From the NCBI GenBank assembly GCA_003551945.1, contig PUNZ01000143.1:1-33543 (forward strand): a stretch of 33,543 nt of DNA. Reading direction: 5' to 3'. The notes under the pieces are model-generated. The model did no database searches, was not told where the DNA came from, and saw only the letters and a list, made by a program, of their open reading frames with translations. This document shows positions 6,358 through 27,396 of this stretch, piece by piece. Each line of letters begins with the position of its first letter. Within the stretch, counting starts at the first letter, position 1. The translations under genes and the position numbers were made by a program. This stretch comes from Halovenus sp. (lineage in GTDB: Archaea > Halobacteriota > Halobacteria > Halobacteriales > Haloarculaceae).

Positions 6358-6439
6358 GCCAGGATGGCCGAACGGTAAGGCGCACGCCTGGAAAGCGTGT
6401 TCCCTTCCGGGATTCTGGGTTCAAATCCCAGTCCTGGCG
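6358..6439 (+). tRNA. tRNA-Ser (anticodon GGA)
   Basis: Folded by eye: acceptor GCCAGGA/TCCTGGC, anticodon arm CACGC-CTGGAAA-GCGTG, long variable arm, T-arm CTGGG-TTCAAAT-CCCAG, discriminator G; CCA not encoded. Confidence 0.95.
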
Positions 6440-25597: not shown

Positions 25598-26029
25598 ATG
25601 CAGGAGTATTCGGATGTTTCACCGGAGACACTGTCCGTTCGAATTATCGATAGCGATATCACCGTCACTTACTCTGACGGCAGGGAGGTCTTCTATCGTG
25701 GGCCAGCAACGCGCACAGAAAGTCCTCACCAGACTGCGCCCGGAAAAGACACACACGTTCTTGTGACTGATGAAAGCGAGACACAAGGCGTGTTACTCTA
25801 TGTGAACGAGGATAGAACAGATGATGCCATCCTCAAAGGTTCCGGCGTCGGACGCGTTCTGTTAGGTCAGGGCGAGGAATCGACGCTCTTTCCGGGTGTC
25901 ACTGTTCGCGGTGGCGGTATCCGTGATGAGATTCTCGTTGATCACGACCTACTCGATGGACGAGTCTTTGTCTTTGAAGAAGACCAGTTCGAAGAATTTG
26001 CGTTCGAGATTGTAGACCGGACCGCATAA
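25598..26029 (+). CDS. Haloarchaeal conserved hypothetical (DUF5796-like)
   Basis: ATG one nt after the preceding stop: MQEYSDVSPETLSVRIIDSDITVTYSDGREVFYRGP...; family number recalled, not searched. Confidence 0.65.
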   Translation: MQEYSDVSPETLSVRIIDSDITVTYSDGREVFYRGPATRTESPHQTAPGKDTHVLVTDESETQGVLLYVNEDRTDDAILKGSGVGRVLLGQGEESTLFPGVTVRGGGIRDEILVDHDLLDGRVFVFEEDQFEEFAFEIVDRTA

Positions 26030-26034
26030 AAGCG

Positions 26035-26150
26035 AAAAACTTGACCGCTGGTGGCAAAGCGGTCAGGCGCGAGTCCCCAGCTAGCCGGGCCATATATGGT
26101 CGGGTCAGGTCGCCCGGCAGTTTAGTGTAATCAGTGAAAGACAAAGAGCA
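26035..26150 (-). ncRNA. Candidate independent small RNA
   Basis: Minus-strand TATATAAA at 26173-26180; GCCGGGC/GCCCGGC stem (26084-26118); 3' hairpin TGACCGCT/AGCGGTCA (26042-26065) followed on the minus strand by AGTTTTTCGCTTTT. No ORF. Confidence 0.5.
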
Positions 26151-26172
26151 CCACTCGGTCATACTGCGGGTG

Positions 26173-26180
26173 TTTATATA
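26173..26180 (-). promoter_or_regulatory. TATA box for candidate small RNA
   Basis: TATATAAA on the minus strand, ~25 nt upstream of the predicted RNA start. Confidence 0.5.
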
Positions 26181-26211
26181 CTACCACTCTGGTTGCTTCA
26201 AAAGAGAGAAC

Positions 26212-26218
26212 AAAAAAA
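26212..26218 (-). terminator. Oligo-T terminator of acyl-CoA dehydrogenase gene
   Basis: TTTTTTT on the minus strand just downstream of the stop at 26233. Confidence 0.55.
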
Positions 26219-26232
26219 CAGCGACGGCCGAA

Positions 26233-27396
26233 TCAGGCGAAGCCTTTGCCCTGTAGCTCGCGAGCGATGATGTTTTTCTGGATTTCCGTCGTTCCCTCGT
26301 AGATTTGCGTAATCTTTGCGTCACGGTAGAACCGCTCGACATCGAAGTCGTTGACGTAGCCTGACCCACCGTGAATCTGAACGGCCTCGTTTGCAACGTC
26401 GACAGCCACGCGGGAGGCGTATTCTTTGGCCATCGAAGCGAGCATCGTCAGGTTGGTGTCATCATGGTCGTTATCGACTGCCCAGGCGGATTTGTAGGTG
26501 AGCAGACGTGCAGCTTCGGTCTTCGTGAACATATCAGCGAGTTTATGCTGGATTGCCTGGAACTCGCCAATGGATTTACCGAACTGCTCGCGCTCTTCGG
26601 CGTATTCGAGTGCGCGCTCTGCAGCACCACGGGCAATACCAACACCCTGTGCGGCAACAGCGGTTCGGGTCTCATCGAAGAACTGCATCTGCTGGAGGAA
26701 TCCTGCACCGCGAGTGCCGACGAGATTCTCCTCTGGCACACGGACATCGTTCAGGATAAGTTCAGCGGTATCGGACGCACGGATACCGAGTTTACCTTCG
26801 ATTTTCTCGGCGTCGAAGCCGTCCCGGTCGGTTTCGATGATAATCTGTGAGAAGCCGTTGTAGCGGCCCTTTGCATCTGGGTCAGTCTGGCAGAGTGCAA
26901 CGACGTAATCTGCGACGGTTCCGTTCGTAATCCACATTTTGTTCCCGTTGATGACCCACTCGTCACCATCCTTTTCGGCCTGCGTGGAAATGGACGATAC
27001 GTCGGAGCCAGCGTGTGGTTCGCTGATTGCCGCACCGGTAATCATTTCACCCTCAGTAACCGGACGCAGATACTGTTCTTTTTGCTCTTCCGTACCGAAG
27101 CTCGTCAGCACTTCTGTCCCGAACGCCGTCGAAATGAGCGACAGACCAATACCCGGGTCAGCAGCGAACAACTCTTCTGTGATAATCATTACGTCCTGAT
27201 TGGAGTAGCCTGCTCCACCGTACTCCATTGGGATGTGTGGTCCCATCAGGCCCATTTCCGCGGCTTTATCGATGACTTCGTGTGGGTACTTCTCCTCGAC
27301 ATCGTACTCACGAGCGATGGGTTTCACCTCGTTCTCGGCGAACTTTCGCACTTCATCGCGAATCTGTTCTTGCTCCGCGGATAATCCAAACTCCAT
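26233..27396 (-). CDS. Acyl-CoA dehydrogenase
   Basis: [96 protein letters not shown]. Confidence 0.96.

Follow-up and report, generated by a model that had tools for sequence, protein, structure and literature searches.

The 33,543-nucleotide stretch of Halovenus DNA analyzed here (contig PUNZ01000143.1, hereafter "the window") probably (at a rough probability of 0.62) contains a chromosomal small RNA (sRNA) gene that has its own promoter and is shared by Halovenus and Salinibaculum. The predicted transcript is ~115 to 120 nt long and would most likely act in trans. Comparison with related sequences established the promoter, the stem, the linker motif, their fixed spacing, and the independence of the gene from its neighbors. 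A sequence-only reading of the window had described a minus-strand TATA box, a GC-rich stem, an 8-bp hairpin, and a T-tract, and had proposed an independent ~115-nt minus-strand sRNA. Every one of these elements is present as described, and the proposal stands as the best reading, with support from the promoter, stem, and motif conserved in relatives and from the changing neighbors.

The candidate gene and its parts

The element lies on the minus strand between two convergent protein genes, and its parts are as follows.

26233 to 27396, minus strand: acyl-CoA dehydrogenase gene, the upstream neighbor (Pfam), with its stop end at 26233
26180 to 26173, minus strand: TATA box TATATAAA, read from the sequence; 14/14 homologues have a TATA-like A/T-rich block at an identical distance from the stem (-61 to -55)
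26168 to 26169, minus strand: invariant CC, 4 nt past the TATA block (positions -51 and -50; 14/14 homologues)
26154 to 26158, minus strand: CGGGA-like block just 5' of the predicted start (conserved at -40 to -36)
26119 to 26150, minus strand: predicted 5' leader of fixed length and nearly free sequence (alignment of 14 copies)
26084 to 26118, minus strand: stem 1, 7 bp, GCCGGGC (26118 to 26112) with GCCCGGC (26090 to 26084), from pairing and covariation
26069 to 26080, minus strand: near-invariant linker motif CTGGGGACTCGC, consensus CTGGGGACTCRC (homologue alignment)
26042 to 26065, minus strand: hairpin 2, perfect 8 bp, TGACCGCT (26065 to 26058) with AGCGGTCA (26049 to 26042), loop TTGCCACC, read from the sequence
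26028 to 26041, minus strand: T-run AGTTTTTCGCTTTT, predicted terminator, read from the sequence
25598 to 26029, plus strand: DUF5796 gene, the converging neighbor (Pfam PF19109, E = 5.6e-53)

In the window copy, the CGGGA block reads CCGAG and so departs from the consensus. The loop of stem 1 is 21 nt long (26111 to 26091) and contains CCATATATGG, the last G of which is shared with the stem, and a TAG links stem 1 to the CTGGGGACTCGC motif. A separate minus-strand T-rich tract at 26193 to 26219, directly after the acyl-CoA dehydrogenase stop, is the likely terminator of that gene; it precedes the sRNA promoter.

Taken alone, the window element folds with ordinary energy (z = -0.93; 38 of 200 shuffles fold equally well). 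The linker motif is mostly paired in single-sequence folds, with inconsistent partners and a low predicted exposure. The case that the element stands beyond chance is compelling from its relatives, not from the lone sequence.

No known RNA family fits the element, as the sequence-only reading had judged by eye; Rfam 15 covariance models and a tRNA scan agree. Across the window, Rfam 15 gave no match at the gathering score save a tRNA at 6358, and seven homologous loci had no plausible Rfam match at E up to 5. The tRNA, SRP RNA, RNase P RNA, box C/D, and H/ACA families of Rfam 15 yielded no covariance-model match to the element, and the homologue alignment has no conserved columns corresponding to box C (RUGAUGA) or box D (CUGA).

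Distribution in Halovenus and Salinibaculum

Homologues occur in 14 genomes, 11 of Halovenus (counting that of the window) and 3 of Salinibaculum, so that 13 genomes besides that of the window keep the promoter, stem, and linker motif. A DNA search of 41 related genomes recovered six further copies, all in one genus, and the neighborhoods of acyl-CoA dehydrogenase genes yielded two in the second genus. Five more (L060, L061, L063, L065, and L085) were found with a covariance model of the stem and motif that omits the promoter, here called R1. L065 scored an E value of only 0.04 under R1, yet its stem, motif, and TATA box are all in place. The carriers include Halovenus carboxidivorans WSH3, uncultured Halovenus such as Tc-Br11_E2g27, SHR40, and QH_10_67_13, and, within Salinibaculum, KK48 and S. 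litoreum HD8-45. High-scoring copies occur once per genome.

A second model (R2), comprising promoter and core, was run over 151 genomes of the family and returned 13 copies at E ≤ 2.1e-17, followed by a gap to the next best match at 5.8e-4; the 13 are the set from which R2 was built, and it is the lack of further strong matches that carries information. A laxer scan covering 32 genomes added no confident member, a scan of 400 genomes of the order found no confident homologue outside Halovenus and Salinibaculum, and the GTDB r220 species set held no further confident member. Pattern matches outside the two genera among the 400 order genomes lack a symmetric stem and look chance-like, and a reversed-pattern control also produces matches. 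Non-haloarchaeal matches in the species-wide pattern scan were about as numerous as chance predicts. A viral or plasmid origin was considered and rejected, as searches of viral contigs, phages, and plasmids returned zero homologues. Within the genomes searched, the gene was thus found only in Halovenus and Salinibaculum, to which it appears confined. Because several Halovenus genomes that are near-complete lack it, it is dispensable at the genus level.

One copy (L006, about 1349 to 1430 on contig C25 of genome G016) carries an ~80-nt insertion between stem 1 and its CTGGGGACTC motif. The insertion is rich in inverted repeats and may be either a mobile mini-element or a tolerated extra hairpin.

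A conserved core behind a length-locked leader

The homologues have in common a TATA box, the invariant CC, the CGGGA block, a covarying stem, and the near-invariant CTGGGGACTCRC. With the stem as anchor, all 14 copies align at a TATA-to-stem distance of exactly 63 nt and show no indel; the G at -38 within the CGGGA block is invariant, and TC at -29 and -28 is also conserved. The spacing is not an artifact of the search, because R1 omits the promoter and all five copies that it found still show the 63-nt offset of the TATA box. The leader (-33 to -1) has a mean identity of 0.35 in register, compared with 0.24 to 0.29 when shifted, and it appears to be constrained in length only, its sequence being nearly free.

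From the TATA distance and the SRP RNA promoters of the same genera, we infer a start at about 26150 (±3), ~31 nt before the stem, which gives the predicted RNA length of ~115 to 120 nt.

Stem 1 is paired in 98.9% of cells among 13 sequences, and in 3 of its 7 pairs both partners vary; its covariation score exceeds those of all 500 shuffles and of every slid control. Coming from 13 related sequences, this covariation is supportive, not decisive. The loop varies from 13 to 22 nt among copies. Variants of the linker motif are limited to L005 (CTGCGGGCTC), L063 (CTGGGAACCC), L006 (ACTCTC), and the 3' end of L065. Compared with its nearest relative (G012), the window is identical at 76/76 positions of the RNA core, against 131/184 (71%) at fourfold sites of the acyl-CoA dehydrogenase gene, from which we take the core to be strongly constrained. 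The same pair shares 24/30 promoter and 17/33 leader positions.

Hairpin 2 is less general than stem 1. Its sequence is kept in window-like Halovenus copies but not in Salinibaculum or pheT-adjacent copies; where it is not kept, it is replaced or broken. By eye, T-rich tracts lie downstream of most homologues. The objection that promoter and stems might not be conserved in relatives, raised in the earlier reading, therefore fails, with the qualification that stem 1 is conserved across relatives and hairpin 2 clade-wise only.

Changing neighbors and alternative explanations

The 5' neighbor is acyl-CoA dehydrogenase in 8/14 genomes. The six copies that are not behind it are in G003, G009, G007, G013, G014, and G048; that of G003 follows pheT, as does that of G009, judging from the PheT terminal peptide. 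The 3' neighbors vary among DUF5796, NFACT (RqcH-like), creatininase, and unknown proteins, with DUF5796 next to the RNA in the window and G012 alone. G001 and G016 have the RNA between acyl-CoA dehydrogenase and NFACT, while in G002 and G004 (99% complete) the two protein genes converge directly and there is no RNA at this junction (loci L029 and L031). Given the change of flanking genes and these two Halovenus junctions that lack the RNA, we read the element as a gene in its own right and not as a UTR, and gain or loss as a unit would fit a free-standing gene.

These neighborhoods bear on two other explanations. Derivation of the RNA from the acyl-CoA dehydrogenase mRNA, as its 3' UTR or as a processing product, the TATA box being fortuitous, would suit the 8/14 copies behind that gene; we regard it as very unlikely, given that all 14 copies have the TATA box at the 63-nt offset, including the six beside other genes, and that in the window a T-tract stands between the dehydrogenase and the RNA promoter. 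Read-through from the dehydrogenase as the sole source of the RNA is likewise unlikely because of the conserved private promoter and the copies beside other genes. The T-run AGTTTTTCGCTTTT overlaps the stop codon (26027 to 26029) of the converging DUF5796 gene, as would be expected if the element served the plus-strand neighbor as a cis-antisense or convergent terminator element. However, the plus strand has no T-run at the site, as the earlier reading had pointed out in assigning the tract to the minus strand alone, and the identity of the converging gene changes from genome to genome, which makes such a role highly improbable.

The rigid 63-bp spacing between TATA box and palindrome and the GC-rich inverted repeat might instead mark a DNA element, such as a binding palindrome for a regulator or recombinase, but we consider this improbable: the palindrome spacer ranges from 13 to 22 nt without helical periodicity, the G016 copy has an ~80-nt insertion ahead of the motif, the TATA/CC/CGGGA block and T-run suit a transcription unit, and the viral contigs, phages, and plasmids are devoid of homologues. 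A small protein encoded by the minus-strand ORF at 26162 to 25899 is scarcely credible, even though this 87-aa ATG frame stays open across the element. The ORF has no Pfam match, the frame of the closest relative (L002) stops after 13 codons, and the differences in loop length are not multiples of three, and for these reasons the element appears to be non-coding.

Proposed mode of action

Our best guess is a trans-acting sRNA that uses its conserved core. The archaeal promoter (TATA, CC, CGGGA) would initiate the ~115- to 120-nt transcript near 26150, and a ~31-nt leader, constrained in length and almost free in sequence, would run into the 7-bp stem-loop. This would be followed by the conserved 12-nt CUGGGGACUCRC and a clade-specific hairpin, transcription stopping at the U-run near 26030. 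Stem 1 and CUGGGGACUCRC may together form a core that binds mRNA or protein in trans, with the leader and loop as spacers.

A base-pairing target is unsupported, since in nine RNA-carrying genomes no conserved place holds an exact complement of the 12-nt motif; the search with the 12-nt complement tolerated one mismatch, and an imperfectly paired target is conceivable. In the inspected genomes, the exact 12-mer complements lie at places that bear no relation to one another, and at the one site common to G048 and G067 the motif itself reads in the sense direction, within the terminal part of a coding frame. Pairing of the leader with the motif or the loop is not supported either, being in most sequences no better than that of shuffled leaders. 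The leader, variable and length-locked, might recall the variable 5' guide of a nuclease-associated guide RNA; no partner gene is constant among the neighbors.

The RNA might instead bind protein or play a structural part, for example, as a component of a ribonucleoprotein, and not regulate by base pairing, a possibility that we hold tentatively. The constant stem and near-invariant linker, set against a free loop and leader, suit a protein-recognition core, as does the failure to find a conserved complementary target. The gaps among near-complete Halovenus genomes nevertheless speak against a universal housekeeping RNA, and the element is not Rfam-like.

Relation to known RNAs and possible distant kin

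Intergenic sRNAs of Haloferax volcanii include sRNA132 (PMC6560208), and rancRNA_s194 of the same species is 97 nt long (PMC6104027). Like the window RNA, they are haloarchaeal, intergenic, and non-coding and have their own genes, and s194 is of similar size; the window RNA is set apart from sRNA132 and s194 by the genome searches, which found no homologue outside the two genera. Conserved intergenic sRNAs without a function have also been described from a halite community (PMC7002113), and the window RNA shares their setting and, roughly, their size, the likeness being one of description. Our literature search found no paper linking Halovenus with an sRNA. From these comparisons with the described examples, which are by description, the RNA is best placed as a putative new, narrowly distributed family within a known kind, the haloarchaeal intergenic sRNAs.

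The archaeal SRP RNA (RF01857) of the same genera is likewise a stable RNA gene with, by eye, a TATA-like box about 22 to 25 nt before the first base of the model and a downstream CC-C-GTA-like block. Its sequence and structure are unrelated to those of the window RNA, its promoters carry a CGAAAGGYCCTTATG-like sequence that the window RNA lacks, and in 8 of the 10 genomes searched its gene occupies a locus of its own. In Halovenus and Salinibaculum, the RNA start of the SRP genes (L191 to L198) is preceded by a promoter, CGAAAGGYCCTTATG, that is strongly conserved.

When a matrix of the 63-nt block was run on weak matches, two groups of loci showed the same geometry. L199, L113, and L216, in one further genus (near 1506 to 1650; L216 at about 206, minus strand), have the same 63-nt promoter-to-stem spacing, a GCCGGT..ACCGGC stem with a GCCGGTGGGTGGGTGGTTCATCG loop, and then GGGGGACG; they are plausible distant kin of the window RNA (best E, 6.5e-4). 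The second group (L109, L115 to L118, L204, L215, L219, L223, and L227) is a conserved RNA-like element from a different genus of the family, with about ten genomes carrying it. It lies between genes called by eye as radical-SAM-like and PHP-like, and it has a similar promoter geometry and a different conserved sequence, ending near TTTTTGCCCTGCC; these loci may merely share promoter features. Neither group has an Rfam match, and neither is claimed as a member. It is conceivable, if doubtful, that L199, L113, L216, L109, L115 to L118, and others are diverged members of an RNA class that evolves fast within one haloarchaeal family and shares a syntax of TATA, CC, GGGA, a free leader of fixed length, and a stem 63 nt after the TATA box, in which the leader would be ruler-like or guide-like.

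The unusual feature of the RNA described here is its length-locked, sequence-free leader. The presence and absence of the gene at the acyl-CoA dehydrogenase/NFACT junction offer a natural comparison of related species. In archaea, where few sRNA families have a defined anatomy, the finding contributes an RNA family for which there are a usable covariance model and, in H. carboxidivorans WSH3, a host that can be cultured.
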